Both the position numbers and the translations under genes were made by a program. Below the pieces are notes generated by a model. That model was not told the DNA's origin and did no database searches. It saw only the letters and a list, made by a program, of their open reading frames with translations. Shown piece after piece: positions 33,316 through 57,111 of a DNA stretch of 64,000 bases (its first letter is position 1; each line of letters begins with the position of its first letter). Origin of the DNA: Pseudomonas fragi (lineage in GTDB: Bacteria > Pseudomonadota > Gammaproteobacteria > Pseudomonadales > Pseudomonadaceae); the NCBI RefSeq assembly GCF_900105835.1, contig NZ_LT629783.1, positions 248,001 to 312,000 on the forward strand, read 5' to 3'.

Positions 33316-33389
33316 GGCCGAATAGCAAAATGGTTATGCAGCGGATTGCAAATCCGCCCACGCCGGTTCGATTCCGGCTTCGGCCTCCA
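33316..33389 (+). tRNA. tRNA-Cys (anticodon GCA)
   Basis: A 74-nt tRNA with acceptor stem GGCCGAA/TTCGGCC, D-arm TAGCAAAATGGTTATGCA, anticodon arm GCGGATTGCAAATCCGC containing GCA, GTTCGATTC T-loop and encoded CCA. A decayed copy of its 3' part and of the following terminator lies at 36835-36920. Confidence 0.97.
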
Positions 33390-36920: not shown

Positions 36921-37384
36921 AGCCCCGCATATTTGGGAGGTGTTACGCGTATTGGCTTTAGTCAGTGAGACAACTTCGCCGCCCCGTCGATACACCCTGC
37001 GCGTACTTTCCTCCTTGGAGTGCCCCTACAGTTGACGGGGATGTTCCAGCACAATCTACGGGGTGCTTCAGGCCGACTATCCCTGAATTGAAATTGTCGA
37101 ATAGTTGCTGCCAGCTCACTCCTCAGGGGGGGAGCAAAACAACGACGGCGATTCACCTCTGTTCCCATCGAAGCGTCAGTGACCAGGTTGATGGATGTCA
37201 CAGAGGCGCAACTGTCTGAGGGGGAGGGTGAGCACGTTCTGCTGTTTGGCAGTCCAAGCATAGGCTGAAGATGTCTAGGGTGTCAGGGGCCGTCCAGCCC
37301 CGAACTGCATCTCAATGGCTGACATCTTTGATGCCGCCATGAATCAAAAGTGGCCGCGCCAACATGAAACTTGATTCATTCCAG

Positions 37385-37434
37385 TAATGGCCAGTCTGGC
37401 CATTACATCTGTACGAAATTTCCACCGGTATACT
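37385..37434 (+). promoter_or_regulatory. Perfect palindrome and -10 box ahead of the beta-helix gene
   Basis: TAATGGCCAG-T-CTGGCCATTA (37385-37405) is a 21-base perfect palindrome. TATACT at 37429-37434 could be the -10 box of the gene at 37469, which would put the palindrome over or just upstream of the -35 position, a usual operator place. Confidence 0.5.
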
Positions 37435-37468
37435 GCCGACTTTTCCTGTTTTCTGAGGTTTGGTCGTC

Positions 37469-40072
37469 ATGGTAAGTCGCCGGCACTTGTTAAAACTCAG
37501 CGCCCTCGGCACCGCATCCTTCGCGGCGCCGCTGGCGTATTCTGCGAGCAACATCACCATGACCCATAACACCGGCAATCCGATTGGCTCTACCTCGCCA
37601 ACAGATTTATCCGATAACGCCCGGAACCTGGACTACTTGTCCTTGGGGCCCAATCCGTCCTATCCCGATCGAAAAGGCGTGGCACGAAAATCGTGGTCGG
37701 GCATGGAGAGCGAGTTCAGGGCTGGTCAGGTTGAGCGTGACGCGCAGTTCTCTGCATTCATGGATGCCAGCGGATATGAACCACCTGTTCCCTATGCACC
37801 AGGAATCAAGCTAGTCCGCTTAACTCAAACGGTTACTTATCAAGGTAGCCAATACCGAGTCCGAACCCAGTTCCTGCCGTTGACAACAACTGTCTGGGCG
37901 GCTGACGAGCAGAAGCTGAAGTTGATTGGCGATGACTCGCTTCGTCAGGATATGGCTAACTCGACAGACCCAACCAAGGGGGCCGCAATTCTTGGTCGCG
38001 GTGGCGTAGTGGTTGCCAGCATTGTGGGCTTGTCTACATGCCCCAAAAGGGCTGATATCGCAGTTATCGTCAAGGACTACCATCCCAGCATTCACACTGA
38101 CGGTGGGGGGCGTTTTCACTATGACCCCATCATGCCGAAAAGCGCTCATGACGGAGGCACTGTTTTCAGCCCGACAGTTCCCTGGAACGGGACTAAAGCG
38201 ACCCTGCCTGGCTACCTGGTGCGAGCCGGGGAAACGGATCCATCAGGCATTGGTTGCTGGGTCCGCCGCGTAGAAGATCAGTACCTGATCACCATGTTTG
38301 GTGCTGTGCCTGATTGGAGTGTCGAGGCGAATACGGGTTTTGATAATCGCCCGTCAATTGAAGCTTCGATGCGCAGTGTTTATCACACCGTCATCCCGAA
38401 AGGGCATTTCGGAGTTGCGGCTGGTGGATCAATTTTTGCGCAAGGCTTGATCGGAAAACGCATCAGTGGCGGCGGTGAGCTGCACAAGATGGGCGCCAAA
38501 GGGATCTTCTCATTTAAAGATTGCATAGACATCAAGCTGTCAGGGATCATTCTTGATGGTCAGATCGTTCGAGACGAAGCTGAAAACGGCAACATCTGGG
38601 ATGGTTCTCGTCTATCAGAGAGCTTTGCTTTTGCTGTGTCCTTCGTCAACTGCACCGACTGCGAAGTCCGGGCGGTTGAAGTGTATGACTTCGCATGGGA
38701 TGGCTTGCGTGCAACAGGCACTGTTGCTCCAGGTGGGGCAACGGCTGTTCAATCCAGCAGCATCTACTTTATTGAAAACAAACTGCGAAACATTCGCGGC
38801 TCGCAGCTGTGGTTCAAAGCAATCAGCGGCGGGAAAATCAATGGTAACCGCCAGCGCAACGACGTCACTTTCGCGCAAAAAGGCAACGCGATCTTCATTG
38901 TCGAGTGGTGCGCAGACATTGAGGTCGCGCATAACCGGCAGTATTCCAGCGGGGACAACGGTGTAGGCATCGGCGAGCCAGACAACAACAACGTCGCGGC
39001 CCGCAACAAGCGGATCAACACTCACAACAACTCTATTTTCATGACCCGTTATCACGCGATCCTCATCGCGCAGGCTGAAGATTCGCTGACACATAACAAC
39101 CTGATCCACAGGGCAGGTGCCAAATCTGAAATGGCGGGCAAATCGGGCGCCGTGGTGTGTGGGGCTATTACCTTGCTTGGGGGCGGTTCTGCTCCTGCCA
39201 ACTTGCGGAATAAAGTCTACAGCAACGTCATTGTTGATCCGTATGAGCACGGCATTTATGCCCGTGATCGCATGGAAACCCTTTTCGCTAACGCTTCGTC
39301 GGGGCTGGAACTCTACGACAACACCATCTCCGGCTTTGGCAAGCTGGCAACGGCAACTCGCCTGAGCAGCAGTGGTATCACCACGCAATTGCAGATCGCT
39401 CCAATTCTTCGCGGCAACATTACCCAGGATGGAGTTGGTGATGGCCTGCGGGTATTTGGCGACGCAGATATTTCGGAGCACAGGGCGTTTCGCATCATCG
39501 GTAAAGGCATTCATATTCCTACCGATACTTTGCTGGGGAACACACGTTTGTCCTCGCCGCTGACTAACTGTGAGACCGCTGATACCACCGAAACAGGTAT
39601 CAGTATCTGGACGAAAGATCGTGTCCAGCTTATCGGCTGCAAAGCCCTGCGCGCAGGGCGTGGCGGTTCTGAGCCGTCTGCAGAGGACACAGTGAATGCA
39701 TTGCAGCATGCAGGCATCGCATTACGAAGTGTCAAAACGGCAAGTCTGGTCGGTTGCGGTGCGCGAGAGTGCGGCGCTGCGGGGTTGGTGACCCAGTTCT
39801 GTCCAGTCGTCAAAGATACCGATGGCGAGTGGTCAAAGAACGGGCATATGTACAAGGCCACTTACTTGAAGGCTGGCGTGTACGCCGAGGGCGATGAGAA
39901 GTCCGCTGTGAAGTTGACGCTGATTAACCCTGTTATGGAAGGGGGCGCCACTCAATATCAGCCTGTACGTGTGCTTTATGGCCACACCGACAGCGTAGCT
40001 CTTGACCCTGAGTTCTCGAATCACACAAGTGTTAGCATTGGTTTGGCCATCAAGAAGCTGATTAATATTTAA
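37469..40072 (+). CDS. Tat-signal beta-helix protein with phage-tailspike-like N-terminal region
   Basis: An 867-residue protein. It starts MVSRRHLLKLSALGTASFAA, which has a twin-arginine motif (Arg4-Arg5), a hydrophobic core and a cleavage site near YSA-SN. Residues about 35-200 resemble the region after the head-binding part of Podoviridae/Myoviridae tailspikes: GSTSPTDLSDNARNLDYL, PDRKGVARKSWSGME, then TTTVWAADEQKLKLIGDDSL. From about 270 to 800 runs a right-handed parallel beta-helix pattern with many N/G/V/I turns (HNNSIFMTRYHAILI, VYSNVIVDPYEHGIYARD), as in pectate-lyase-type and polysaccharide depolymerase spikes. The ATG at 37469 has TGAGG 10 bases upstream. It is followed by a tiny ORF and lies near the EPS locus. 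A secreted or surface polysaccharide-acting enzyme is inferred; no catalytic residues are assigned. Confidence 0.75.
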   Translation: MVSRRHLLKLSALGTASFAAPLAYSASNITMTHNTGNPIGSTSPTDLSDNARNLDYLSLGPNPSYPDRKGVARKSWSGMESEFRAGQVERDAQFSAFMDASGYEPPVPYAPGIKLVRLTQTVTYQGSQYRVRTQFLPLTTTVWAADEQKLKLIGDDSLRQDMANSTDPTKGAAILGRGGVVVASIVGLSTCPKRADIAVIVKDYHPSIHTDGGGRFHYDPIMPKSAHDGGTVFSPTVPWNGTKATLPGYLVRAGETDPSGIGCWVRRVEDQYLITMFGAVPDWSVEANTGFDNRPSIEASMRSVYHTVIPKGHFGVAAGGSIFAQGLIGKRISGGGELHKMGAKGIFSFKDCIDIKLSGIILDGQIVRDEAENGNIWDGSRLSESFAFAVSFVNCTDCEVRAVEVYDFAWDGLRATGTVAPGGATAVQSSSIYFIENKLRNIRGSQLWFKAISGGKINGNRQRNDVTFAQKGNAIFIVEWCADIEVAHNRQYSSGDNGVGIGEPDNNNVAARNKRINTHNNSIFMTRYHAILIAQAEDSLTHNNLIHRAGAKSEMAGKSGAVVCGAITLLGGGSAPANLRNKVYSNVIVDPYEHGIYARDRMETLFANASSGLELYDNTISGFGKLATATRLSSSGITTQLQIAPILRGNITQDGVGDGLRVFGDADISEHRAFRIIGKGIHIPTDTLLGNTRLSSPLTNCETADTTETGISIWTKDRVQLIGCKALRAGRGGSEPSAEDTVNALQHAGIALRSVKTASLVGCGARECGAAGLVTQFCPVVKDTDGEWSKNGHMYKATYLKAGVYAEGDEKSAVKLTLINPVMEGGATQYQPVRVLYGHTDSVALDPEFSNHTSVSIGLAIKKLINI

Positions 40073-41167: not shown

Positions 41168-42556
41168 TCAGTAAATATCTTTCGAGATCAAGGTAAGCGG
41201 AGTCTTGATCATGATTTTTATATCGAGCCACAGCGACCAGTTGTTGATGTAGTCGAGATCGATTTCAACACGCTTTTGCATCTTCTCGATGGTGTCGGTT
41301 TCACCGCGGCAACCGCTGATTTGTGCCAGGCCGGTAATGCCGGGCTTGATGCGGTGACGGGCCATATAAGCGTGGATCTTGCCGGTGTAATAGTCGTTAT
41401 GGGCCACCGCGTGTGGACGTGGTCCCACCAGTGCCATATCACCATGTAGCACATTAAACAGTTGTGGCAGTTCGTCCAGCGAAGTGCGGCGGATAAAGCG
41501 ACCAACAGCGGTAACACGCGAGTCGTTACGGCTGGCTTGTTTGACTTGTTTGTCATCATGAACTTGCATGGAGCGGAACTTCCACACCTTGATGACCTTG
41601 CCGTTCCAGCCATGGCGATGCTGTTTGAACAGGATCGGGCCTGGGGACGACAACTTTACGGCCATGGCAATCACTGCAAGTACCGGGCTGAGGCAAACAA
41701 TGGCGACCAGTGACAGCGAACGCTCCATCAATGCCTTGCTCAAGGCTGCAGTCGGATAGCTTGTAAGCGGGCTTTCATTCAAATGGATGGCTGGACGGCC
41801 GCCAATTTCACTGACCGAATGGTTAAGCAGCATCATGCTGTCCAGATCGGGAACCCAGACGACATCGACATTCAAGTCCAGCAGGTCGATATAAAGCGCT
41901 TCAATACGTTGAGCTTCTTGCAGGGACAAGGAAATATAAAGTCGACGGATATTATGCTCGGTAATCAGTGAGCGTAACTGGGCTAGTTCACCCACAATAA
42001 GTGGGGAATTGGTGGCATCTTCAAATGGAGAGGCGCTGACCACGCCGACCAGCGGGAAATGATTTTGTTGAATAAAGCTGTCGGCCAGTTTCAACGCTAC
42101 ACCATCAGAGCCGATAATCAGGCTGTTGTAATGGTGGTTATTGCGCTGATGATAAAATCTGGACAGTCGATGCAGTATCAGATATGGCGGCACTTGAATC
42201 AGAAAACCCAGCGCGGCCCAGCTGATCAGGGTTTCGCGAGAGAACAGTTCGCCGGATTTGGTCACGAAGCCAATGGTACACAAGCATGCCAGGGTCAGCA
42301 TCCAGCCCAGAAACAGGCGGACGCAACCGTTAAAAGCATTGTGCCTTTTATAGTAAACATGTGTGGCGGAATAGGCGGGCACTGATACCAGCAGGGTCAG
42401 AACAGCGAGGATTCGGTAATGGAAGTCGACGCTGCCGAATTTGGTATAGACCAGTGCCATTAACAAGGCGACGACAAAGGCCATGGCCACAGACCACTGG
42501 CCCCAAAAAGTCAGCCCTCTGGCCACGGTTTTTCGATCTAGACGTGTATGAATCAA
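41168..42556 (-). CDS. wcaJ: Undecaprenyl-phosphate glucose phosphotransferase (WcaJ-type)
   Basis: A 462-residue polyprenyl glycosylphosphotransferase that starts the polysaccharide repeat unit by moving glucose-1-phosphate from UDP-glucose to undecaprenyl phosphate at the inner membrane. There are four N-terminal helices (residues about 20-140), a CoA-binding-like domain (about 145-250: NSLIIGSDGVALKLADSFI), a re-entrant helix (about 275-300) and the catalytic domain (VWKFRSMQVHDDKQVKQAS, RRTSLDELPQLFNVLHGDMA with the Asp-Glu pair, VGPRPHAVAHN). It lies at the 3' end of the minus-strand EPS block but is separated by its own 273-base upstream gap, so it may have its own promoter. Galactose transfer is the alternative. 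Confidence 0.9.
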   Translation of the reverse strand: MIHTRLDRKTVARGLTFWGQWSVAMAFVVALLMALVYTKFGSVDFHYRILAVLTLLVSVPAYSATHVYYKRHNAFNGCVRLFLGWMLTLACLCTIGFVTKSGELFSRETLISWAALGFLIQVPPYLILHRLSRFYHQRNNHHYNSLIIGSDGVALKLADSFIQQNHFPLVGVVSASPFEDATNSPLIVGELAQLRSLITEHNIRRLYISLSLQEAQRIEALYIDLLDLNVDVVWVPDLDSMMLLNHSVSEIGGRPAIHLNESPLTSYPTAALSKALMERSLSLVAIVCLSPVLAVIAMAVKLSSPGPILFKQHRHGWNGKVIKVWKFRSMQVHDDKQVKQASRNDSRVTAVGRFIRRTSLDELPQLFNVLHGDMALVGPRPHAVAHNDYYTGKIHAYMARHRIKPGITGLAQISGCRGETDTIEKMQKRVEIDLDYINNWSLWLDIKIMIKTPLTLISKDIY

Positions 42557-44403: not shown

Positions 44404-44871
44404 TTACAGATTGTGAATATCGAAGGTCGATTTCTCGAAACAAACAGTGTTAAAGGCCTCGAAAAAGGTACGGGATTGACCTGCGCTACCACGCTTTATC
44501 TGTTTTGCCAATCTTTCTTCGTATGGCGCGAACACTGCCATGCTACTGGCGACGCCGGCAGTGTTGGCAAGAGCGTCATAAAACGATGCGGTGCGCAACG
44601 GCATAAGGGCCTGGGCATATTCAATCAGTACCCCTGCCAGCACGCAGCCAATGGCGGGCCAAAGTAGCCTGATGTGCAAAAAGGCAAGGCGGCAACTGAA
44701 CGACAGGGCAAAAAAGCCAATAAAATGATGGTGCTTGTCTTACTGGGCAAAAAACTGCGGAATTGGCCGAGTGCGCAAACCGGTAAACAACAGCCCTGCG
44801 CACACTGCCAAAAAAAGCAGTGCGCGCAGCCAGAAGGGCAGAGCAACCAGGCGTTGAATCAGTTGGCTCAC
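44404..44871 (-). pseudogene. VanZ-like membrane protein interrupted by an in-frame stop
   Basis: A GTG at 44871 overlaps the yjbH stop by 4 bases (GTGA), and a 155-codon frame follows with the VanZ layout: first helix FWLRALLFLAVCAGLLFTGL, then RTRPIPQFFAQ, then DKHHHFIGFFALSFSCRLAF, then VLAGVLIEYAQALMPLRTAS and YDALANTAG. Codon 44 is TAA (44740-44742), between FFAQ and DKHHHF. The conserved DK-HF box lies just after it, so the full protein cannot be made without readthrough or reinitiation. Apart from that codon the frame is intact, so the mutation looks recent. Confidence 0.75.
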
Positions 44872-46955
44872 TCGGTGATCTTCTCGAAGTTCTCGTAAAA
44901 CGCGTCACGATTACGCCCATCGGTCATGGTATGCAGCGAGTACTGGCGATGCAGCATGGCGCCACCGTCTCGAGTCAGCGGTGCCCAGGCGATATTGGCG
45001 CGGCTCATGGTCGACACACTCATCATCTCGTCGAACGGAATCGAGATATAGATACCTTTATCGAAACTACCTTCGCCGTATTCTTCTGAAGAGGCGGTGG
45101 TGCGTGTTACCCAGCCACCGAACTTCACTCCATTGGTGAATTCTCGGGAGATATCGATGGTGGTACCCCAGTCGCGGGCCAGATAGCGGCCGACGCTTAC
45201 TGCGGCGTCCAGATCGAACGGAAGCTTGGTGTAAGTGGTGACATGACCGGTTACTGTCCGGTAATCACGTAGGCCAAAGCCCTGGTCAAATTCCCGTTGG
45301 CGCACATAGTTCAGATCGGCACCGATTGACCAGCGTTCACCCATTGGTCGATAGAGCATTTCGCCACCCACACCGGCGTACATGGGTTCCAGATAACCGC
45401 CATAGACCATACCGTACAAGTCCTGATCCAAGCGCTTTGCCTTGTTAAGTTGTAAGGCTGGCATGGTGACATCGGAGGTTGTGACATATTGGCGTACATC
45501 AGTGCGTACACGTGGCAGGTTGCTTGGTGCGTCGTATTTGAATTTGTCGTAGTTGTTCAGTAAGTTGACGCTGACGCCGCCACTTGCCCATGTATTAGGC
45601 GTAAAGCGATATTGCCCTTCGGCATAGGCGCTAATCTGGTAAAGCAGGAAGCCGTCAGGGCCACCCAGATTCTGCTGGTAACCCAGACCAAACCCGTAGG
45701 TAAATGGGTCAGGTTTGTGTTGGTACAGGGTTTTATCATAATGGGCCGTGGCTCGATTGACCTCGGTGGTACGATGCAGATCGATCAGATCTTGTTCGTT
45801 ATTTACCACATTGCGGAAGGTCGAGCGCGGCACGCTGGTTTCCTCCACAGGCATGTCATAGCGCTTATTGACCAAGGTGAACCACTGGATCTCATCGTTG
45901 GCGGTATTGTCCAGAATTCGGCTGGCTCGACCTACGCCCTTGGCGGAATAGAAGTACTTGGACTGCTCGCCATATACCATCAACTCGGAATCGCGCTGGG
46001 CAATACGCTCCACTTTATAGCCGGCGTTGCTTTCCAACTTTTTCGACACGTCAGCCCAGTCAACCTGGTCCAGCCCTACCCTTGGTGTATTGGTTGGGAG
46101 CGGTTGTGCTGGCGGGTCGAAGCTTTTAGCTGGGGCCTTGCGGCTGACAAAGTTGGTATGCAGGGTAATGCCGAACAAGGCGGTATTGCCGCGCTCCCAG
46201 CCTGCAGTCAGGTCGATATTTTCATTAAGTTTGTAGACAGCACCGATGTTAATTGGTGAGTCCTGAGCGTGGCTGCTGTTTAGAGGCTCGTGTTTGTAGT
46301 CGTTTCCGTCAAACTCTAATTTCAAGCTCAAAGGCGCCCAAGGAGTTTGGTAGGCTACTCCGCCGAAAAGGCCAGGGGAACCACGGAAATACGAATTGGC
46401 GTTGACATTGCCCGCATTGCTGGCATCAATTGAAGGCCGGGTATCGAAACGGTCATCAAGATAACCTAGCGGGTTATCAAGATCTCCGCGATTACCTATA
46501 TACCCCCAAGCTATACCTAAGCTGAAATCAAGGTTTTTATAGCGTTTATTTGCAACAAAATACTCGCTGGAAAAGAGGCCGGTACCACCAACATCTCGGA
46601 AACCTAATGCAACTTCTGGCAGCCAATGGCTTTCTTGCCAGAGTCGGGCTTTAATATCGACTGCTTTGTCTTTATAGCTCTGTTTGCCACTTAAATAATC
46701 AAATCCGTACAAGCGGTCGGTAATAGCAGTGTAGCGAAATGTCCCCTCAAGCCAGTCGAGAGGCTGTAAAGAAAGGCTATACCGAGAATATGGCTCTGTA
46801 CGGTTAGCATTAAGACTTAGCTCGCCCACAGGAGCCATACGAGCCGTAGGCGTTTGAAGCAATCCAACGCCACCAAAGTCATTCTGTGTGTAGCGTGGCT
46901 CCGCATGGGCCAAGCTATAAGGTAACAAGGCGACAACAACAAAACGTAACTTCAA
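44868..46955 (-). CDS. yjbH: YjbH-family outer-membrane EPS protein
   Basis: A 695-residue protein with a signal peptide (ending SLAHA-EP) and a YjbH domain: NDFGGVGLLQTPTARMAPVG near residue 25, NRTEPYSRYSLSLQPLDWLEG, and many alternating beta strands typical of an outer-membrane barrel to the end. In E. coli yjbEFGH makes an extracellular polysaccharide under Rcs control. It overlaps yjbG upstream and the broken vanZ downstream by 4 bases each. Confidence 0.9.
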   Translation of the reverse strand: MKLRFVVVALLPYSLAHAEPRYTQNDFGGVGLLQTPTARMAPVGELSLNANRTEPYSRYSLSLQPLDWLEGTFRYTAITDRLYGFDYLSGKQSYKDKAVDIKARLWQESHWLPEVALGFRDVGGTGLFSSEYFVANKRYKNLDFSLGIAWGYIGNRGDLDNPLGYLDDRFDTRPSIDASNAGNVNANSYFRGSPGLFGGVAYQTPWAPLSLKLEFDGNDYKHEPLNSSHAQDSPINIGAVYKLNENIDLTAGWERGNTALFGITLHTNFVSRKAPAKSFDPPAQPLPTNTPRVGLDQVDWADVSKKLESNAGYKVERIAQRDSELMVYGEQSKYFYSAKGVGRASRILDNTANDEIQWFTLVNKRYDMPVEETSVPRSTFRNVVNNEQDLIDLHRTTEVNRATAHYDKTLYQHKPDPFTYGFGLGYQQNLGGPDGFLLYQISAYAEGQYRFTPNTWASGGVSVNLLNNYDKFKYDAPSNLPRVRTDVRQYVTTSDVTMPALQLNKAKRLDQDLYGMVYGGYLEPMYAGVGGEMLYRPMGERWSIGADLNYVRQREFDQGFGLRDYRTVTGHVTTYTKLPFDLDAAVSVGRYLARDWGTTIDISREFTNGVKFGGWVTRTTASSEEYGEGSFDKGIYISIPFDEMMSVSTMSRANIAWAPLTRDGGAMLHRQYSLHTMTDGRNRDAFYENFEKITE

Positions 46956-47719
46956 GGTGCAACCTCAGCCAGCGGTTGGGTGGCGAGGAACTGCGCCAAC
47001 TGCTCGTTCAAATCGGGTGTAGGCAAATCGGCGTTATCGTTGCGCACGGGCACCAGAATCCTGCTGCCAGCGACCGCATAGACGCCGTCCTCGCGGTTCC
47101 AGGCAGCAATCGCAACACGCTTGTAGGTGCCATCAGGGTGAATCAACCACAAGAAATCCACTTCTGCTTCTTTCAGTCGCGGGCAGCTGTCGAGGTAGTC
47201 ACGTACTTCCAGCAGGGGCTGATAGGGCAGAGTGCAGTCATGTTCAACTGCGCCTACCACGGACACACTATTAGTGCGCGTCGGGTAAGTTACCTTGTCG
47301 CCATCACTGAGCAGATAGTTGTGGGCAAAGCCGACTTCCAGCGCGACCGGGTCAAGGCTTACCACTTTGCGGCCAGTAACCGGTAATTGGCTGATGTCCT
47401 GGTGCAGGCGCGCCGCCACAGCCGCGAGGCCGCCGTTGTTATTAAGCAAGGCGCCGCGTTGCAGCATTTTCAGGTCGAACAGCACACCAGCCTTGAGCCG
47501 TATCTGCTTTTCAACTTCTGGTTGATGCAGCCATGCGGCTGCCAGCCAATAGCTTTCCGGGTTGGGCTGGGCCTGGCTGATCACATCCAGCAAGCGCATG
47601 CCTGGCTTGAATGCCACGCTTACCGGCTTGAGCACATCACCGCTGACGGACACGGCGGCCTGACTGATTGCGGCATGACTAAGCAATACGCACAGCGCCA
47701 GTTTTTTCAAAGAGATCAC
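46952..47719 (-). CDS. yjbG: GfcC/YjbG-family capsule biosynthesis protein
   Basis: A 255-residue periplasmic protein with a signal peptide (ISQA-AV). GfcC-type blocks are SGDVLKPVSVAFKPGMRLLD, PESYWLAAAWLHQPEVEKQI, the SLBB-like PVTGRKVVSLDPVALEV and YLLSDGDKVTYPTR. Family members are periplasmic partners of Wza-type secretion; GfcC is required for group 4 capsule. It overlaps both yjbF and yjbH by 4 bases, so yjbFGH are translated as a unit. Confidence 0.88.
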   Translation of the reverse strand: MISLKKLALCVLLSHAAISQAAVSVSGDVLKPVSVAFKPGMRLLDVISQAQPNPESYWLAAAWLHQPEVEKQIRLKAGVLFDLKMLQRGALLNNNGGLAAVAARLHQDISQLPVTGRKVVSLDPVALEVGFAHNYLLSDGDKVTYPTRTNSVSVVGAVEHDCTLPYQPLLEVRDYLDSCPRLKEAEVDFLWLIHPDGTYKRVAIAAWNREDGVYAVAGSRILVPVRNDNADLPTPDLNEQLAQFLATQPLAEVAP

Positions 47720-48375
47720 TGGGCAGCCTCCCAGTCAGGTCGCAGATGCACAATGCGCAGCTCAAGCCCCGGCGTGACGTACTGCTCGCTTTGCAGGATC
47801 ACGCCATCTGCGGGCCTGACCCAAAAATGGTTGGTGCCGCTAAAGCCAAGGGCCGGAATTTCAAATTTTTCATCGATACGCTGCAGTACATAAGGCTTGT
47901 CGAGAATGGTCACGGTTTCCAGGCCTTTACGCACAAAGCGGCTGTTAACCGCCAGGCCGACCTGCTCACCCTGATACATATCGATCCAGCGCGTGCTGCG
48001 TTCGCCGTCCGCCACCAGATGCAGGCCGCGCTTGAACGGTGACTGCCCGTCGAAACGGGTACCGTCCAGGGCGGGTTGCAGCCCGGTGGTACGAACCACC
48101 AGGCCGTTACGCATCAGCAACACTTGCTTGCCCGAGGCGACCCAGTACTGCAAGTCCCCTTGCTGACGAAGTTTGGCCATCACACCTTCGCTCGAAGGTG
48201 TGGTCACCAGGATTTGCGCATAAGGTACCGCCGCGACGTCGGCCGCGGTCAATTCCAGCGGCACGGGGCCTTGAACGGCGGCCTTGAAGGTATCGAGCGA
48301 GCCCTGCATCAGCGGGCTACAGCCACACAGCAACAGGCACGCCACCAGGCATGAGCGGTTACGAAGAGTTTTCAA
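47716..48375 (-). CDS. yjbF: YjbF/GfcB-family lipoprotein
   Basis: A 219-residue predicted lipoprotein: signal peptide with lipobox LLLCGC (Cys18-19 region), then the YjbF domain (ITTAD-like LTAADVAAVPYAQILV, VLLMRNGLVVRTTGLQ, GTNHFWVRPADGVILQS). Homologues sit in the outer membrane as part of EPS export machinery. It follows wza by 13 bases and overlaps yjbG by 4 bases. Confidence 0.88.
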   Translation of the reverse strand: MKTLRNRSCLVACLLLCGCSPLMQGSLDTFKAAVQGPVPLELTAADVAAVPYAQILVTTPSSEGVMAKLRQQGDLQYWVASGKQVLLMRNGLVVRTTGLQPALDGTRFDGQSPFKRGLHLVADGERSTRWIDMYQGEQVGLAVNSRFVRKGLETVTILDKPYVLQRIDEKFEIPALGFSGTNHFWVRPADGVILQSEQYVTPGLELRIVHLRPDWEAAQ

Positions 48376-48388
48376 AACGGCTCAAACC

Positions 48389-49528
48389 TTATCGGCTGCT
48401 GGCTTCACTGAGGTTGTTGCCTGCGGCAGCACCGGTACCCAAAATAGTTGCTGATGGCAGCAACTGGCTGATCAGGCGATTCCAGCGGGTAACCTGAGCA
48501 GGGCCAACGTACACGATGTCTTGTGGTTTCAATTCAAAATGGCTGGCAACCGCGAAGGACACTGGCGACTCTCCATCCAGCTGGAAGACTTTAACCGGTT
48601 GCGTCTCCAGGTTTTCAGCGCCACGAATCACATACAGTGCGTTACCGTTGGAGGTGGTTTGGTTCAAACCACCCACGGAGCCGACTACATCGGCAAGGCT
48701 CATATTTTTGGTTTTGAAGCGTATTGCCTGGGGGGAAAGCACTTCACCCATGACATAAATCTTTTTGCGGTCATTGTAAGGCAGGTACAGCTGATCACCG
48801 TCTTTCAAGAACACATTGTGCAATTGCGAGCCGCTGTTGTTCAGGGCATCTATGTCCAACACATATTCGTGACCATCGCGGGTAAGTATCAACCCGGACA
48901 GATCTGCAACAGAGGGCTGAATGCCAGCAGCGCCGAGGGCCTCGATCACACTTAGTGGCGAGGTTGTGATAGGCATTGGCCCGGCCTTGGATACGGCACC
49001 GGCAAGAATTGCCTTTTGGCTGGCAAAACGCAGCACGTTCAGATCCACCTGAGGGCTGTCTACATACTGCCTCAGGCGGTCGGAAATTGCTGTACGAAGC
49101 TCCTCAATGGTTTTCCCCGCTGCATCGAGTTGGCCAATGTAGGGGTAAAAGATTGTACCGTCCGGGCGCACCAAGCGACCGTTGGAATCAATCTGTTGTT
49201 GCGGGCCCGAAGGTGCCGTCAACTCGGGATGATCCCAAACGGTGATATACAGCACATCGTTGGCGCCGATTCGGTAGGCTGCAGGCTTGAATGCCAGCAA
49301 TTCTGCTGGCACCGAGCTTGAGACGTATGTCGCCGCGTTTTGCGCAATCAGCTTGGGAGTGATAGGGATTAACTCGACCCGACTGCTTTCTGGCGAGCCT
49401 TCAGTCCCGATTTCACTGGTATCCAGGTACTGACCGGGCGCAAACATACAACCTTGCAGGGCGAACCCTGCAAGTACCGCGAGCGACAAACTACGAATCA
49501 TCATTGAGGACACTTGTAAAGGAAACAC
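48389..49528 (-). CDS. wza: Polysaccharide export outer-membrane lipoprotein Wza
   Basis: A 379-residue OMA-family lipoprotein forming the octameric export channel. The signal ends in the lipobox FALQGC. The Poly_export domain is at residues about 85-175 (YRIGANDVLYITVWDHPELT, GRLVRPDGTIFYPYIGQLDA), then two SLBB domains (KAILAGAVSKAGPMPITT; KKIYVMGEVLSPQAIRF) and the C-terminal membrane-spanning segment region. The open frame starts at 49528; the ATG pair at 49504/49501 gives a shorter, more usual signal peptide and may be the true start. It works with Wzc across the envelope. It lies between yjbE and yjbF rather than beside wzb-wzc. Confidence 0.92.
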   Translation of the reverse strand: MFPLQVSSMMIRSLSLAVLAGFALQGCMFAPGQYLDTSEIGTEGSPESSRVELIPITPKLIAQNAATYVSSSVPAELLAFKPAAYRIGANDVLYITVWDHPELTAPSGPQQQIDSNGRLVRPDGTIFYPYIGQLDAAGKTIEELRTAISDRLRQYVDSPQVDLNVLRFASQKAILAGAVSKAGPMPITTSPLSVIEALGAAGIQPSVADLSGLILTRDGHEYVLDIDALNNSGSQLHNVFLKDGDQLYLPYNDRKKIYVMGEVLSPQAIRFKTKNMSLADVVGSVGGLNQTTSNGNALYVIRGAENLETQPVKVFQLDGESPVSFAVASHFELKPQDIVYVGPAQVTRWNRLISQLLPSATILGTGAAAGNNLSEASSR

Positions 49529-50426: not shown

Positions 50427-51530
50427 CTACAATACCACAATTTCAGCCTCTAAAGAGATATTGAATTTGTTTTTCACGTCTTGTTGTATTTTGTCCATTA
50501 CATGTAATACATCTTCACCGGTCGCATCTCCTGCGTTCATTAGAACCACAGGTCGTTTGCTTTCAATACGGACGTTGTTGAATGTTTTTCCTGACCAGTT
50601 GGTGTTTTTCATTAGCCAGCATGCAGATATTTTTACAGAGTTACTGTCGTGCTCAAACCACTCGACGTCAGGGTATATGTCTTTAAGTGTCCGAAAGGAA
50701 GCGGAAGGTAATATGGGGCATTTAAAAAAACATCCACAATTCCCTATCTTGTCAGGGCTATGCAATGTGCGAGTTCTGATGTAAATGACAAGCTTGCGCT
50801 TTATTCTGGCAGGTATAATGCAAAGTTTTAAAATGTCCCGAACGCAATTGAAGCTGAATTTTATTTTTGGTTTTGGGAGTAGTTTTAAATTGATACTTTT
50901 GAATGATAGCTGTATTAGGCGCGCTGAGTCCTTTAAGAACTCCAGTTTGTTGTAGTGTGCGGAATTGGCTAGCTCTTTTACTAAAAGATTAGACTTGCAG
51001 AGTCTGAAGGTAACATGGGTAATGAAAAGTTCAGGCCTGGATTTGAAAATGCTGGACCTGTAGCCTAGAGCGCACTGCTCATTAGTCAGATCTAAAAATG
51101 TACCTGTGTCTAAATTGAAACAGTGAACAGTATGTATAAAGGTTGAAGCTTCAACGCCATATGCACCGATGTTTTGCACCGGAGCTGCGCCAACAGAGCC
51201 AGGTATGAGAGAAAGATTCTCAAGGCCAAGGTACCCTTGCATGACTGTAAAGCCTACAAAATCATCCCACACTACACCTGAGCCGGCCTTTATTAAAATA
51301 TAGTCTTTGGTGTCTAGAGTTATCTCTATCGTCTTTAAATCAGACTTAATGACTATGCCATCAATGAAGCTTCTCGGTATGATATTATAGCCGCCGCCAA
51401 TGATGGATGTATGACTGTTTAGAGTACCATCGTTTGATTTTTCAATCAGGCTTTCGAGAGAGGTTATGTGATGAAGTTCTGTGCACTGAGACTTTACTTT
51501 GAATGAGTTTTTAATTTCATTTGAAGTGTT
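50427..51530 (-). CDS. Divergent MurB-like FAD oxidoreductase in the EPS cassette
   Basis: A 367-residue paralogue of UDP-N-acetylenolpyruvoylglucosamine reductase. The FAD_binding_4 domain (residues about 20-160) has IIGGGYNIIPRSF and LSLIPGSVGAAPVQNIGAYG; the C-terminal MurB domain has LGYRSSIFK (active-site Arg), GNCGCFFKCP and LEAEIVVL (active-site Glu). In E. coli MurB the proton donor is Ser in GNAGSFFKNP; here it is Cys (codon complement at 50730-50732). AT-rich codon use unlike housekeeping genes and a position at the end of the sugar cassette suggest a role in making an unusual sugar, not peptidoglycan. Start ATG at 51530. Confidence 0.8.
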   Translation of the reverse strand, partial: NTSNEIKNSFKVKSQCTELHHITSLESLIEKSNDGTLNSHTSIIGGGYNIIPRSFIDGIVIKSDLKTIEITLDTKDYILIKAGSGVVWDDFVGFTVMQGYLGLENLSLIPGSVGAAPVQNIGAYGVEASTFIHTVHCFNLDTGTFLDLTNEQCALGYRSSIFKSRPELFITHVTFRLCKSNLLVKELANSAHYNKLEFLKDSARLIQLSFKSINLKLLPKPKIKFSFNCVRDILKLCIIPARIKRKLVIYIRTRTLHSPDKIGNCGCFFKCPILPSASFRTLKDIYPDVEWFEHDSNSVKISACWLMKNTNWSGKTFNNVRIESKRPVVLMNAGDATGEDVLHVMDKIQQDVKNKFNISLEAEIVVL

Positions 51531-51604
51531 CATGATGTATTGGAGGCCTAAGGGCAGGTGGTTGAGTCGCTTAACTTGCAAGACAAGGCCACGAATGGAG
51601 GTCT

Positions 51605-52348
51605 TCAGTTTGTTTTTTGACCTAATTTTGCCTGTATCAGCATCTTTAAGAAAACAGAATTTGACTTTACATAGCGTTTCCACATTCTACGCGGTTCTTG
51701 ATAAATTCTGAAAGCCCACTCAAGTCCGGATTTTTGCATCCACTGTGGCGCACGCTTGACCTTGCCCGAAATCACATCAAATGTTCCTCCTACACCCATA
51801 ATGAACTGGACGTTAAGTTTAGAAGACCACTCGTGAATGAACGTCTCTTTTTCTGGGGACTTAATGCCTATAAAAAGCATGTTTGCGCCAGAAGCATTAA
51901 TGTTGGCAACTACTTCCTCTTCTTTTCCCCAGAAATATCCGTCATGGTACCCGGCAATGTTGAGATTGGGTACGTTGTACTTTAAATTTTGAATCATTTT
52001 CGTTAGAACTGAATCTGTGGCGCCAAGGAAATAAACGGAGTAGTTTTTTTGCTCGGCAGTTGCAAGAAGGTCCGAAAACAGGTCGACCCCTGTAACCCGC
52101 TCTGGAACAGCCAGGTTTAAAAACTTCGCTCCCCAGATAGCACCCATTCCATCTATATTGATAAGGTCTGAGCTATTGACAGCCTCTCTAAGTGCGGCGT
52201 CATGCTGACAGCTTACAATGGTGGCTACGTTTAGGTCACTTCGAATGAATTGTTTTTCTCCGCTATCGATAGCTGAGCAAATTCTAGAGATGGTTTCTTT
52301 TTTTGAGAAGAGTTCGTAGCGAAGGCCGAAAATATTATGCTTGTTCAT
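51605..52348 (-). CDS. WecG/TagA/CpsF family glycosyltransferase
   Basis: A 247-residue GT26 enzyme, which usually adds ManNAc or ManNAcA to a lipid-linked GlcNAc. Motifs: DLINIDGMGAIWGAKFLNL near residue 65, ERVTGVDLF, VYFLGATDSVLTKM, then FIGIKSPEKETFI and GVGGTFDVISGKVKRAPQWM with RIYQEPRRMWKRY at the end. It overlaps the GT4 gene by 14 bases. The nearby WecB can supply UDP-ManNAc, which fits this family. Confidence 0.9.
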   Translation of the reverse strand: MNKHNIFGLRYELFSKKETISRICSAIDSGEKQFIRSDLNVATIVSCQHDAALREAVNSSDLINIDGMGAIWGAKFLNLAVPERVTGVDLFSDLLATAEQKNYSVYFLGATDSVLTKMIQNLKYNVPNLNIAGYHDGYFWGKEEEVVANINASGANMLFIGIKSPEKETFIHEWSSKLNVQFIMGVGGTFDVISGKVKRAPQWMQKSGLEWAFRIYQEPRRMWKRYVKSNSVFLKMLIQAKLGQKTN

Positions 52349-53333
52349 TAGGAGTACTTTCTAAGAAGGTTTTGTAGTTAGATAACATATCGTCAGTAGT
52401 AAGAAAATCATGTCGCTTTAATGGAGATCCTGCAGTGATCCAAAGATCTTGCTTGTCACGACAGTTTGCCATTTTATGTGCTAAGTCGGTCGCATCGTTT
52501 TGGATAAAGAACTCAACCCCTAAGTCGTCAGTTTTTTTCCTAAAAACTGGAAGGTTAGAAGCAAGTACCATATGGCCTCGTTCTAGTGCTTCGTAGTAAA
52601 CCAGGCCGAATCCTTCAAATTGAGAGGGGACAACTAACAGGTCTACATGTTTAAGCAGTGTAAAAGGGGCGTCAGAGTAGCCGTGAAAGGTTATTTTATT
52701 TGATAAATCAGAAAGAGCTGCATTTTCAAGCTGCTGCGGGTCAAGCTCGCCTGAACCAACAATATGAAGCTCCGTGTTAACGTGTTGGTTATCTGTTATA
52801 AAAGCTCTGAATGCTTCTAGCAGCAGGTAAATTCCTTTTTCTTTAGCAAGCCGACCAATGAAACCAATTTTAAAAGTGCCGTTATCATTACGCTCAAAGT
52901 TTTCTGCTTCATTCACTGAAACCCCGTTGGGTATGACAGTGATGTTGAGCTTAGGATTGACGGTATGGAGGTAGTCTTTGACCTCTGAAGATACAGCAAT
53001 GATTTTAAGGTGAGTCAGGTGCTTGAATATAAAGTTTTTGCTTGGGAAGATGTTGTGGCAAATAAATATTGAATTTGAATTCCGCATGAATATGAAAGGA
53101 ATTAGAAAGATGCGGTGATGAATGATAAAGGTGTTCCTATGCTTTCTGATCAGGTCGGAAAAAAAAGCGAGGGCAGCATATAAGTAGTTTGAGCGACGTT
53201 GTCTTGATTTGTCTTTGATATAATCAAATGAGATGATTTTGGAGTGTTCTTCATTGTCATCGTAGATGAGCTTGAGTATTTTTTGTGCTCCGCCTAAATT
53301 TTCTGCGGAATGGTTAATTAAGTGTACGAGCAT
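52335..53333 (-). CDS. Glycosyltransferase family 4 protein
   Basis: A 332-residue GT-B fold retaining transferase acting on the cytoplasmic side of the membrane. The N-terminal start is HLINHSAENLGGAQK. The C-terminal Glycos_transf_1 domain has IGFIGRLAKEKGIYLLLEAF, LHIVGSGELD and the nucleotide-sugar EX7E-type block VPSQFEGFGLVYYEALERGH. It overlaps wzy by 20 bases and the GT26 gene by 14. The sugar is not known. Confidence 0.9.
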   Translation of the reverse strand: MLVHLINHSAENLGGAQKILKLIYDDNEEHSKIISFDYIKDKSRQRRSNYLYAALAFFSDLIRKHRNTFIIHHRIFLIPFIFMRNSNSIFICHNIFPSKNFIFKHLTHLKIIAVSSEVKDYLHTVNPKLNITVIPNGVSVNEAENFERNDNGTFKIGFIGRLAKEKGIYLLLEAFRAFITDNQHVNTELHIVGSGELDPQQLENAALSDLSNKITFHGYSDAPFTLLKHVDLLVVPSQFEGFGLVYYEALERGHMVLASNLPVFRKKTDDLGVEFFIQNDATDLAHKMANCRDKQDLWITAGSPLKRHDFLTTDDMLSNYKTFLESTPNEQA

Positions 53334-54582
53334 TCTGCTGTCCTCTAAAAATCTCGCATCTAATGACCATTAGTGGGATGAGGTACATAATAAAACCATA
53401 TATTGGGTAGAATAAAGAAGATAGGTATATGCAAGCTACAAATATTGGCAGCGGGAGATATTTCGATTTTTTTCCGATGACAAGCAAGTCATATGCGAAA
53501 ATTGCGAAAGCAATCGCTCCCATTTCGAATAGATATACATATATTTCAGCGTTATCGCGCCGGGTAAGGGGCTGTTCGTATGTAAAGTTACTTCTGCTGA
53601 ACTCCAGGCTGTTGGAGAAGTAACCCCAGTTGGACAGCCCGTGACCTATAAGTTTGGTCAGTGGGTTGTCGGCAAACCACATGTTTATAATATTGGCGGC
53701 GGTGTAGGTTCGCGCAATTGCTGATCTGTCGCTGAAATCGGTTTCTGATATAGAGAAATAAAAGTAGACAAAAGCGGCCAGCCCTACTGTAACTATAGGT
53801 ATGAGCCTGCGGAATGACTTTATGTAAGGCTCTGTATGGATGCTCAGTGCGCAAATGATCAGAAGAATGAATATGGTTCTGTTTTCACTCAGGTAAAGGC
53901 ATGCTATGGCAAGAGCTATTAATGCGTAATCCGTCCATTTTTTATATTGTTGCTTGTAGTAATACAAAAAAAGCCAAGAAAATAGCGCGAGACCATACCA
54001 GTTAGGCTCCAAGAAAAAACCACGCATGCGTGTGCCTAAGTTTCCTTTGTCTACATAGTAGCTAGAATCTATTCCTCTAAGTTCAAGTTGGACGCCGAGT
54101 GCGTTGATGAAAATATATTGAATAAGTCCAGTTGCAATCAGCAGCGTGACAGCTAATTTGGAGACCTTGCGCCAGTTTACGTACTTGTATGAATAGCTAA
54201 CAAGAGTATACATGGCCGCGTAAATCAGCAGGTAGGAAAGGATCGCAAAATAGACATCTATGTTTTTGGCCAGCGCTATATGGAGTATGGCATAAAGCAG
54301 TAAAATCATTGTTGGCTTGTCAGGCAGGTTCTTGGATATAGAAGATTGCCCTGAATTTGCTTTGGTCAAAAAGATCATCAGTAATGCAAACAGTCCTAAA
54401 AGGATACCTGACTGTATGAAAATTGGGCCGGCTGGGATTTTGAGCACGCTATCAAAGCACATCAAGAAAACTATGACGTACATTAGCTGTCCCAGTTTTA
54501 ACTTGCGAGTGGTGCTTTGTGTAAAACTGACTCCGCTATTCATTGGCTTGCCTGGGTGTTGTTGCTGTTTTGTTGCGCGCAT
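53314..54582 (-). CDS. wzy: Wzy-like polysaccharide polymerase
   Basis: A 422-residue membrane protein with about 10-12 hydrophobic helices, such as LMYVIVFLMCFDSVL, ILLGLFALLMIFL and YALIALAIACLYLSENRTIF, and a large periplasmic loop (residues about 265-345). The arrangement and SENRT motif resemble O-antigen ligase/polymerase proteins. The start could be the ATG at 54582 or at 54543 (MNSGVSFTQ), which has AGGC upstream. It overlaps the GT4 gene by 20 bases. Polymerase is assigned from topology and from its place in a Wzx/Wzy locus. Confidence 0.75.
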   Translation of the reverse strand: MRATKQQQHPGKPMNSGVSFTQSTTRKLKLGQLMYVIVFLMCFDSVLKIPAGPIFIQSGILLGLFALLMIFLTKANSGQSSISKNLPDKPTMILLLYAILHIALAKNIDVYFAILSYLLIYAAMYTLVSYSYKYVNWRKVSKLAVTLLIATGLIQYIFINALGVQLELRGIDSSYYVDKGNLGTRMRGFFLEPNWYGLALFSWLFLYYYKQQYKKWTDYALIALAIACLYLSENRTIFILLIICALSIHTEPYIKSFRRLIPIVTVGLAAFVYFYFSISETDFSDRSAIARTYTAANIINMWFADNPLTKLIGHGLSNWGYFSNSLEFSRSNFTYEQPLTRRDNAEIYVYLFEMGAIAFAIFAYDLLVIGKKSKYLPLPIFVACIYLSSLFYPIYGFIMYLIPLMVIRCEIFRGQQNARTLN

Positions 54583-54639
54583 GATAAATATTTTCAGTGA
54601 GCCTGTTTGTGCAGGACATCAATTAATCTCATGGCTACG

Positions 54640-55704
54640 TTAGTTTTTAAGGGCGTTATCCAAAAAATCTTGAGATTGTTTGATGAATTCAGCAAGTTTT
54701 GTTTTATTTGGTTTTTGCCAGATGTCTCGATTGCTTAATTCATCAATGTGGTCGTATACAACATGGTTTAAATCAGTTTTATCTAGAAGGCTCAGTGCGC
54801 GAGCATTTTTTTCGTTTTCTATGTGTTTTACAAATACTAGAGGCTTGCTGAAATTCAGTGAAAATGCGGTCCCATGAAACGAGTTCGTGCATACCATAGC
54901 GGCTGACTGAACCAGCCCTATCCAGTCACTTGGTGAAATACCCAATAAGCATTGATCCGCTGCGCTAATCGGCTTGTCACCTATGTGGTATACCGGCAGC
55001 CCAGTCATCACTTTTAGTGCGGCAACAAATTCATTAAGCTTGCTGCGTGTTTCGTCGGTGCTCACTTCATATGAAACTATATACTTTCCGTTGGGTACAT
55101 GTTTGCGACTCATGATTTTACTGTAGTCACTAATTAAGAATGTTGGATCAATAACCAGTTCAGGATCGTTGTGTAGCTTATGTTCAATCATGTCTGTTTT
55201 AAGGTGTTGTTCTCGAACACCCATGCTGTTAAATGACTGAGTGTATTCCTTCGGTTGAGGATCTTGCGATAAGATATTTCCTCCAGCACTCGCGGCATAT
55301 GCGATTTTACGAGCCTTATTAGATACAAAGTTTAGGAAAAAAGCTGGGTCGTATTTTTTTCCTGTAATAGATTTATTCCATATTTGGTCACTGCCACATA
55401 CGACAGCGTGGTATTCACCTAATTTAAGCCAGTCTTGAGGGGTTGTAATGCTGTGCTTGTTTAAGGCTAGATATTTAGTTGAGAACTTCTTGAATAGATA
55501 AAGGCGTTTGTACTTCAGTATTGTCTTTCCAATACCTTTGGCAGGGCGCAGAACTTGGTACGTCAGGTACCAAGGCTTATAGTTGATAAGCTCGCTAGAG
55601 TAGCCTTTGTTTAGGATGTATGCTTGTAGTGCGTAAGCTTGGAGTACGGCCCCATGATTCAATACGCCATGAAATGTCAGTGTGTATACAGTTTTAGAAT
55701 TCAT
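54640..55704 (-). CDS. Polysaccharide pyruvyl transferase family protein
   Basis: A 354-residue PS_pyruv_trans (WcaK/CsaB) protein. Signature blocks: YTLTFHGVLNHGAVLQAYAL at the start, YHAVVCGSDQIWNKSITG, SYEVSTDETRSKLNEFV and CTNSFHGTAFSLNFSKPLVF. It would place a pyruvate ketal on a sugar residue, giving the polymer negative charge. Its start overlaps the wzx stop by 4 bases. Confidence 0.9.
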   Translation of the reverse strand: MNSKTVYTLTFHGVLNHGAVLQAYALQAYILNKGYSSELINYKPWYLTYQVLRPAKGIGKTILKYKRLYLFKKFSTKYLALNKHSITTPQDWLKLGEYHAVVCGSDQIWNKSITGKKYDPAFFLNFVSNKARKIAYAASAGGNILSQDPQPKEYTQSFNSMGVREQHLKTDMIEHKLHNDPELVIDPTFLISDYSKIMSRKHVPNGKYIVSYEVSTDETRSKLNEFVAALKVMTGLPVYHIGDKPISAADQCLLGISPSDWIGLVQSAAMVCTNSFHGTAFSLNFSKPLVFVKHIENEKNARALSLLDKTDLNHVVYDHIDELSNRDIWQKPNKTKLAEFIKQSQDFLDNALKN

Positions 55705-56966
55705 TTTTTAATATTCCTGAATAGCACAGCATCGCATTGCAGGTGCCATATGTAATTGTATTTTCTAATGAGAATGTTAGATAGTACGTTGCTCAGTAGC
55801 ATCGCAACAAGTGTTGATACTGCTGCGCCAGCGATGCCGAGCAGTGGGATCAAAGTAATGTTTAAAGTGATCCCCAAGGTTAATGCCATCAATGCTTTGT
55901 AAAAAACTATATTTGAGTTGTTGTCTGCAATTATGATTTGTGTGCTTGCGGCACCTAAAGCTATGATCAGCGGGGTTGCAAACGATATTTTCAATATCGT
56001 GCCGGCTTTTGAATAAGCTTCACCGTACAAAGTGCTTATTATGAAGTCGCTACAAGCTAACAAGGTAAGGGATAAAGCTATGCCCATGAGTGCGATATTT
56101 TGTATGTATTTGACGCGTATTGCGTGAAAGTTTGGGTTGTCCTTAGTGAGCTTGTATATAGCAGGAGAATTAGTCTGGCTAAAGAGCATTGGTGCGATTG
56201 AAAATACTGTTAATATATTCGCCGCAGCACTGTAGATACCAAGCTCATAGTTTCCTAGGATGTATTTTATCATTATTTGATCTATCTTTTGTAGTAGGAT
56301 AACCACAAACCCGGAGAGCACAAGCGGTGTAGATTCTATGAGGATCGCCTTGATGCTTAAAAGATCTGGTTTGGTGATTTTAAACTGATAAGCTGTTTTG
56401 TATAAAATAAGCCCTAGTGCGGAGACCATTGCAGCGTCAAATATTCTTATATATATATATGAGCTGATAGTTATCTTTGTGCCAAAAAACCAGATAAAAA
56501 ATACTGTCGTGATGGCCAGGGAGGTTGCTTCGATAGCGCAATTGGCTATGTTGTTCATCTTCGCTATCAACGCATATTTAAAAACTTTCAAGCTTGAGGC
56601 GATGAAGATTATAGAGTACAGGGCGAGGTAAGTTTCCCAGTCAGAGGTTACGCTGGTAAATTCCGCAAGCCCAGTTGTTGCAAGAAAGCCGAGTGTGCTG
56701 AAAAAAAGACAGATGATAATGGAGTTGGCAATGATCGAGTTTTCACTTTCTCCGCGAGAGATCTTTTTAATCATTACATCCTGGACTCGAAACTCCGTCA
56801 AGACACCCATTATCGTTGCGATGGATATAATAAATGAAAGTGTTCCGAAGTCTTCGGCGCCCAAGGACCGTGCGCTAATTACATTGAGGACAAAGATTTT
56901 GCCTAATTCAATACCTTTAGATGCTAGTGAGCTAATTTGATTGATGAGGCGTTTGCCGATTAACAT
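55701..56966 (-). CDS. wzx: Wzx-type repeat-unit flippase
   Basis: A 421-residue membrane protein of the MOP/RfbX family with about 12 helices. It moves undecaprenyl-linked repeat units to the periplasm. N-terminal text FVLNVISARSLGAEDFGTLSFI is typical, as is the mid-chain YILGNYELGIYSAAANILTV. It is AT-rich like its neighbours. It overlaps the pyruvyl transferase gene by 4 bases and follows wecB after a hairpin. Confidence 0.88.
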   Translation of the reverse strand: MLIGKRLINQISSLASKGIELGKIFVLNVISARSLGAEDFGTLSFIISIATIMGVLTEFRVQDVMIKKISRGESENSIIANSIIICLFFSTLGFLATTGLAEFTSVTSDWETYLALYSIIFIASSLKVFKYALIAKMNNIANCAIEATSLAITTVFFIWFFGTKITISSYIYIRIFDAAMVSALGLILYKTAYQFKITKPDLLSIKAILIESTPLVLSGFVVILLQKIDQIMIKYILGNYELGIYSAAANILTVFSIAPMLFSQTNSPAIYKLTKDNPNFHAIRVKYIQNIALMGIALSLTLLACSDFIISTLYGEAYSKAGTILKISFATPLIIALGAASTQIIIADNNSNIVFYKALMALTLGITLNITLIPLLGIAGAAVSTLVAMLLSNVLSNILIRKYNYIWHLQCDAVLFRNIKK

Positions 56967-57079
56967 GTGTTGGCTAGCTCTTTAGGTTTTGGCTTGGCAA
57001 AGAGGTAGTTGCCGGGATGTTGAAAGCTCAATTAAATAAAGCTATTGATTCTATATGCTTCTATTCTTTGGCTTGGCAG

Positions 57080-57106: not shown

Positions 57107-57111
57107 TGGTT

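Follow-up and report, generated by a model that had tools for sequence, protein, structure and literature searches.

The window (the whole 64-kb stretch of DNA analysed here, part of a one-contig genome of 5.07 Mb) carries a gene for a tailspike-type protein of 867 amino acids with a twin-arginine (Tat) signal (37469..40072, + strand, stop included), of which one copy was found in the genome. The explanation that is favoured here with moderate confidence is that this Tat-signal spike derives from a decayed prophage and was retained beside an EPS operon, and that its product would be exported and would act on the cell's own EPS. A temperate phage whose tailspike gene already bore the Tat signal would have integrated near the EPS operon, after which the prophage would have decayed and the spike gene remained open. 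The spike chain would fold and trimerise in the cytoplasm, followed by export of the folded protein through Tat, and, either in the periplasm or outside, its C-terminal part would bind the EPS of the cell itself and cut or otherwise modify it, so that the chain length would be set or the matrix loosened.

Tailspike-fold EPS enzymes such as WceF raise the question of how bacteria obtained them. A single genus holds the phage form, the signal-less leader, the decayed-prophage form and the EPS-linked form, which would make the route traceable gene by gene. Moreover, a virion-type protein would not be expected to bear a conserved Tat signal, and this can be put to the test.

The tailspike gene and its signal peptide

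The gene-calling opened the reading frame at TTG 37460; a Shine-Dalgarno sequence GAGGT (37455..37459, + strand) instead precedes the ATG at 37469. The spike gene is solitary, with a GIY-YIG-type gene on the opposite strand as upstream neighbour (35575-36414, Pfam match just under the cut-off), and with a short ORF lacking a Pfam match downstream, followed by the opposite-strand EPS operon that extends from 41168 to about 61278. A hairpin (CGGTATACTGCCG, 37426..37438, + strand) contains the hexamer TATACT (37429-37434), and TATACT or TATAAT is present in 14/14 Tat leaders and in 0/9 non-Tat leaders. This element may be a promoter -10 box or a terminator component; since it also lies within a terminator-like hairpin no promoter is claimed, and no sigma-70 promoter was found on the + strand upstream of the spike. 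A perfect palindrome (AATGGCCAGTCTGGCCATT, 37386-37404) is located 5' of the spike and is partially retained in several other Tat leaders; it may be an operator or a terminator.

Codons 1-30 (MVSRRHLLKLSALGTASFAAPLAYSASNIT, 37469..37558, + strand) encode the predicted Tat signal peptide, consisting of the motif SRRHLLK and a long uncharged stretch, which is conserved across 14 distinct loci. The pN/pS ratio over codons 2-30 was 0.19 for these 14 loci, 0.22 for the 7 phage or prophage loci, and 0.15 for the 7 decayed chromosomal loci, and variable positions among codons 1-30 in the 14 loci were concentrated in the third codon position (21/30, as compared to 7/30 for the first and 5/30 for the second). 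The Shine-Dalgarno energy at M1 of the window spike was -6.3 kcal/mol, and a Shine-Dalgarno match at M1 was present in 14/14 Tat loci (mean -5.1 kcal/mol, range -4.0 to -7.0), a level that 12% of the internal Met codons equal. The Pfam TAT_signal model scored 12.4 bits on the window spike, under its cut-off of 22.7, and a search with the 18950 NCBIfam models returned 0 families at E up to 1; the Tat assignment therefore relies on motif and conservation. The genome encodes TatC. At the sequence level, these data show a Tat-type signal that is under selection against amino-acid change, in agreement with the original prediction of a twin-arginine signal ahead of a tailspike head.

Residues 31-165 (37559..37963, + strand) constitute a phage virion anchor and neck, of which the first codon corresponds to the start of non-Tat phage spikes. 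Profile phrog_32929 matches residues 32-286 of the spike (E 3.8e-51), and a profile derived from 32 relatives aligns with the Sf11 tailspike gp13 over its residues 6-161 (PDB 9occ, E 1.2e-20) and, more weakly, with the CBA120 tailspikes (E 4e-4 to 2e-3). The search of the PDB with the head/neck profile gave 9 matches, none of which was named WceF, and phmmer with the single spike protein gave 0 PDB matches at E up to 1. AlphaFold modelled residues 51-150 with pLDDT values of 84-97; structural agreement in Foldseek was weak, with 9occ chains at probability 1.00 but E 0.04-0.11, and in a BFVD structure search 5 entries reached an E of 0.001 or lower, including one with the name tail spike TSP1/Gp66 N-terminal. 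The tailspike-like head region that had been proposed is thus corroborated by phrog_32929, by the Sf11 gp13 profile match and by the AlphaFold model, and the spike module is evidently of phage origin.

According to the available text on Sf11, the portion of gp13 that is modelled on the virion comprises residues 4-59, which are in contact with the tail adaptor as their binding partner (PMC12724387), and the N-terminal anchor and neck of the window spike are homologous to this protein. The sister spikes of the Sf11/phrog_32929 type start at the codon equivalent to 31; the window gene differs from them in bearing a Tat signal and in lacking a tail module. At spike residue 45 (37601-37603), the window has Thr, whereas Lys occupies this position in G132, in P. 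fragi D12 and in those Tat phage spikes that were compared; its counterpart in Sf11 gp13 is Arg16, which, in the Sf11 model as described in that text, is near the tail adaptor. Thr45 could mark the loss of virion docking.

Phage-borne relatives and the origin of the leader

The Tat-plus-head profile matched 23 of the 398 genus genomes, including 4 with the signal (G000, G132, G172, and G366) and 19 without it. A scan of genome collections, using patterns that favour Tat copies, yielded five named loci that all had the signal: P. fragi D12, P. fluorescens PS691, Pseudomonas sp. GV085, Pseudomonas sp. ERMR1:02, and P. vancouverensis Dha-51, the last of which is the G172 copy that is repeated once more in L057. 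Peptide patterns led to 63 viral loci, of which L056-L061 and L072 carry the signal. The total amounts to 14 distinct Tat loci, and the motif rule flags 18 of 96 loci, being those 14 and their repeats.

In the phages the gene order is J-type tail protein, phrog_384 and spike. Matches of the J-type (TipJ) gene are to phrog_469 (tail protein) as well as to phrog_31 (central tail fiber J); the intervening gene matches the virion protein phrog_384. An almost complete J-type gene is present in L055, L056, L059, L060, L061, and L072, and a partial one in L058. A tape-measure gene is present in L055, with matching genes in L059 and L060, and L072 has one that matches that of L059; none was called in L056. 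The statement that phage tailspikes have no export signal is contradicted by these loci, since the same signal occurs on spikes within Pseudomonas phage and prophage tail modules, and the existence of these copies also excludes that the bacterium added the signal. Cultured phage records gave no match with a 40-residue Tat query (one query, BLAST low-complexity filter on). In three phage records an apparent signal match upstream of the spike start, in some cases from query residue 2 onwards, was rejected as a signal: the annotated genes begin later, and the upstream frame contains stops in two of them. Acyltransferase genes were encountered near phage spikes in L016 (6006-8039), L131 (17603-19576), L059 (10558-12558), and L072 (14032-16035), on basis of an annotated O-antigen acetylase (BK061588), of Acyl_transf_3 and SGNH matches (L131, L072), or of similarity (L059).

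The non-Tat sister spikes begin at the codon equivalent to 31, and their leaders align with the signal DNA, relative to which the Tat form has approximately 40 additional bases that supply the ribosome site, the ATG, and the twin-arginine codons. Among the 72 Tat/non-Tat leader pairs (8 x 9), which are not mutually independent, 68 beat all 200 dinucleotide shuffles (mean z 8.1), and in the other 4 pairs 1-2 shuffles scored as high; chance similarity of signal DNA and leader was therefore rejected. None of the 9 non-Tat leaders had an in-frame start more than 12 codons upstream of the spike and within 40 codons. As judged from these alignments, the signal DNA is homologous to a leader that is non-coding in sister phage spikes, which would provide a concrete case of how export signals arise or vanish. 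In L063 (about 5412-5511), the leader has no start codon, yet its translation in the spike frame is still RREL...SADGSASFAAALA; this leader may be either an intermediate or a vestige, and would fit birth and loss of the signal alike.

Phylogenetic trees of 20 rows (8 Tat, 12 non-Tat; two of the J-type rows are short and one is long-branched) required 7 changes of Tat label for the J-type protein, 7 for phrog_384, and 5 for the spike head, of which strongly supported branches force at least 6, 3, and 2, respectively. Trees with one Tat clade were rejected with p-values of 2e-5 (J-type), 2e-51 (phrog_384), and 0.003 (head). These label changes imply that the leader has been exchanged between phage backbones. 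The combined proposition, i.e., that a group of temperate Pseudomonas phages has two swappable leader alleles, in one of which some 40 bp make the Tat signal, that lysogens export the spike onto their own EPS, and that hosts repeatedly keep the gene, with another C-terminus, beside EPS operons once the prophage has decayed, is given a chance only just short of even. If correct, it would mean that an export signal was born from phage leader DNA, and that a phage weapon can turn directly into an EPS enzyme of the bacterium. A phage-borne exchangeable Tat leader homologous to non-coding DNA was not found described in the accessible parts of the open-licence PMC literature.

In lysogens, such export would alter or strip away the surface polysaccharide serving as receptor for other phages, and the benefit for the phage itself may differ from that for the host in being receptor removal. 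An alternative to the favoured explanation is thereby obtained, in which the Tat allele serves the prophage by stripping the receptor and excluding other phages, with any host benefit being secondary. We consider this possible, although somewhat doubtful: the Tat spikes reside within otherwise normal tail modules, acyltransferase genes are found near several phage spikes, and the Tat leader moves between phage backbones, whereas the recurrent loss of the remainder of the phage with the spike being kept argues against it.

A second alternative, which appears unlikely, is that two starts are used in phages, with codon 1 yielding an exported spike and codon 31 a virion spike. In line with this proposal, codon 31 is ATG in 13/14 Tat loci and GTG in 1/14, and the GAG box of the non-Tat start is retained in 13/14; against it, the Shine-Dalgarno energy at codon 31 is -2.2 kcal/mol, no better than the mean of -2.4 kcal/mol for internal Met codons (n=155). 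A true start further downstream, which would have removed the signal, is likewise contradicted by -2.2 at codon 31 versus -6.3 kcal/mol at M1, and a start solely at codon 31 is ruled out by these energies together with the pN/pS of codons 2-30.

The C-terminal part, the EPS operon and the putative function

The C-terminal receptor or enzyme part comprises residues 281-867 (38309..40069, + strand). Pfam Beta_helix was detected above its cut-off (28.4 versus 25.9 bits) in 2 stretches, the best of which covers residues 519-620. AlphaFold assigned pLDDT values below 50 to nearly all residues from 205 on, also when residues 221-867 were modelled alone. The proposal of about 500 residues of beta-helix is thus supported in part, by the Pfam match at 519-620, with pLDDT values below 50 over nearly the whole C-terminus. 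Relatives of the C-terminal part were found neither among 50,697 phage records nor in the other 243 of the 244 genomes of the order, and none was confirmed in IMG/VR by peptide patterns; a set of 199 genus genomes contained one weak match, in G045 (residues 314-391, E 5e-4), with 3 internal stop codons. Among the 14 Tat spikes the C-termini are dissimilar, except for L054 and L060 (80%), and five further pairs have short or weak similarity. The C-terminus of the spike evidently differs between strains.

The EPS operon comprises the gene for the initiating sugar-phosphate transferase (Bac_transf; 41168..42556, - strand), which is located about 1.1 kb from the spike gene and converges with it, an export part encoding YjbH, GfcC/YjbG, YjbF, and Wza (44868..49528, - strand) and an assembly part encoding a MurB-like protein, WecG, GT4, a Wzy_C-like protein (below cut-off), pyruvyl transferase, flippase, epimerase, and Wzc (50427..60795, - strand). 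The prediction that a phage tailspike module bearing an export signal lies next to EPS genes is confirmed, with the spike gene lying outside the operon. The polysaccharide pyruvyl transferase gene (54640-55704, - strand) makes it probable that the EPS is acidic. The MurB-like gene within the operon (50427-51683, - strand) has a MurB_C match above cut-off and a low G+C content (40%). Between Wza and the assembly genes, a frame with PVV/poly-P repeats is present (49592-49987, + strand), which is also found in G343 (L133 14907-15242).

The spike site beside the initiating transferase is common to the window, G132, and P. fragi D12, the last having 94% identity to the window in the initiating transferase and 89% in YjbH, from which the window's strain is probably a Pseudomonas close to P. 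fragi; initiating transferase genes are few, with 2 in the window's genome. The G366 spike is about 1 kb from YjbH, and the spikes of GV085 and ERMR1:02 are 8.4 kb and 7.0 kb from a Bac_transf gene. The EPS link is weakest for PS691, in which the spike is 4.8 kb from a KdsB/KdsC-like gene, the only nearby sugar gene to pass curated cut-offs, the others being below cut-off or unmatched. YjbH (E up to 1e-50) occurs in 102/398 genomes, including 4/4 Tat genomes (p=0.004, kinship ignored), and also in 4/4 genomes with the closest non-Tat spikes (8/8 taken together, p 1.5e-5, with post hoc grouping and kinship ignored); the other genomes with non-Tat spikes display no excess (3/15). Between the window and G132, the export and kinase genes are 76-91% alike, three assembly genes are 28-49% alike, and others have no match. 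This divergence fits a spike that would be matched to the EPS.

Folding and trimerisation of phage spikes take place in the cytoplasm, and the cargo of Tat consists of folded proteins; for this reason, and given that TatC is present and that WceF of Pantoea stewartii provides a precedent, WceF-like export and EPS cutting is proposed here. The most likely function would be that of an exported trimer trimming the cell's own EPS in the manner of WceF. The available text on WceF describes a Tat signal followed by a trimeric tailspike-like beta-helix, encoded in an EPS cluster (PMC7949094), contrary to the earlier statement that no described family with this order was known. According to the same text, WceF slowly hydrolyses the cell's own EPS, wceF mutation leads to longer EPS, the protein also clumps with its EPS, and a neck is described and no phage-type anchor (PMC7949094). 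The window spike shares with WceF, as presented there, the Tat signal and a tailspike-type protein near its own EPS genes; unlike in WceF, the gene lies outside the EPS operon and converges with it, and the spike has a phage anchor, a phage relic as neighbour, and phage-borne Tat relatives. No sequence relation to WceF was found by phmmer or by the head/neck profile against the PDB, WceF itself not being compared directly; as a bacterial protein, the window spike would be a variant that works like WceF, with membership of the WceF family not established by sequence. Besides WceF, no Tat tailspikes were found among the papers listed from the open-licence PMC literature. TspA of RcGTA is a tailspike of a phage-derived element that, in the text available, degrades biofilm (PMC13420450); the window spike is likewise a phage-derived tailspike, and TspA differs in belonging to a gene transfer agent and, in that text, has no Tat signal. 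The virion anchor is still conserved, which would be needless for a purely bacterial enzyme and counts against the favoured explanation. Further points against it are the sub-threshold TAT_signal score, the negative search for a sigma-70 promoter on the + strand upstream, and the partial support for a beta-helix.

It is distinctly unlikely that the exported protein is a lectin or an epimerase rather than a depolymerase. Searches with Pfam and NCBIfam identified no catalytic family for the spike, and the clumping of WceF with its EPS would also suit this alternative. Tailspike anchors and necks, in general, often bear polysaccharide-cleaving domains, which argues against it.

Prophage decay and retention of the spike gene

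Upstream of the spike, the phage gene for virion protein phrog_384 survives in the window as a broken relic (37104..37371, + strand) in two pieces, corresponding to residues 24-73 (37104-37253) and 130-154 (37297-37371). The remaining parts of phrog_384 were not found in the window, and a tail module around the spike is absent, the relic being all that is left upstream; the neighbouring phage genes have evidently been lost. Because the signal occurs on phage spikes and the broken phrog_384 relic is present in the window, signal and spike most likely arrived together. Of the original prediction that a captured phage module had been given a secretion signal, the phage module with a signal is thus retained, and the bacterium as its adder is not, since phage copies carry it. 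Other loci have decayed to different extents: G366 and PS691 retain other pieces of phrog_384 and PS691 also an endolysin gene, GV085 retains a whole phrog_384, an endolysin gene and the C-terminal 118 residues encoded by the J-type gene, ERMR1:02 retains one downstream phage ORF, and P. fragi D12 shows the spike only.

A J-type gene upstream was lacking, or reduced to the 118-residue remnant, for 7/8 Tat spikes in bacterial genomes, as compared to 0/19 non-Tat spikes lacking an adjoining J-type gene (1/19 when the partial L049 is counted as broken), where the view of the 19 non-Tat loci extends 1.5 kb upstream and hence includes only the end of the J-type gene. Within the genus sample the difference was 3/4 Tat versus 0/19 or 1/19 non-Tat (Fisher, p=0.002 or 0.009), and with the three same-site copies of the P. 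fragi group counted once it was 5/6 versus 0/19 (p=1.1e-4) or 1/19 (p=6e-4), a comparison in which named loci were added on the Tat side only. The spike was open in 7/7 decayed Tat contexts, with 534-904 codons, of which the 534-codon GV085 copy may be shortened. Comparison of the spike from the decayed context of L054 with phage spike L060 gave an omega of 0.085 at a dS of 1.6 over 766 aligned codons.

A tRNA-Cys gene (33316..33389, + strand) is located 4 kb from the spike and is a possible prophage attachment site, since an Rz-spanin relic adjoins tRNA-Cys in G132. In GV085 and ERMR1:02, the EPS transferase and the prophage remnant are separated by a dihydrouridine-synthase gene, a type of gene that we take to be used by phages for integration. 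In G244, a non-Tat prophage has its integrase gene at a distance of about 11 kb from the EPS transferase of this same operon. Attachment sites in such regions could by themselves account for the location next to EPS genes, which counts against the favoured explanation. That the spike would be a neutral leftover without a present role, in which a prophage integrated at a hot spot next to the EPS operon has no other gene still open, would agree with these attachment-like sites and with the G244 prophage, but is considered improbable, as the spike is open in all seven decayed contexts while adjacent genes are broken or gone in most of them, omega is low between L054 and L060, and the decayed contexts track the Tat allele and not spikes generally. 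The dihydrouridine-synthase gene was located at 5591-6586 in L053, 14770-15765 in L054, and 8723-9733 in L139, with a Pfam Dus match in L053 and L054.
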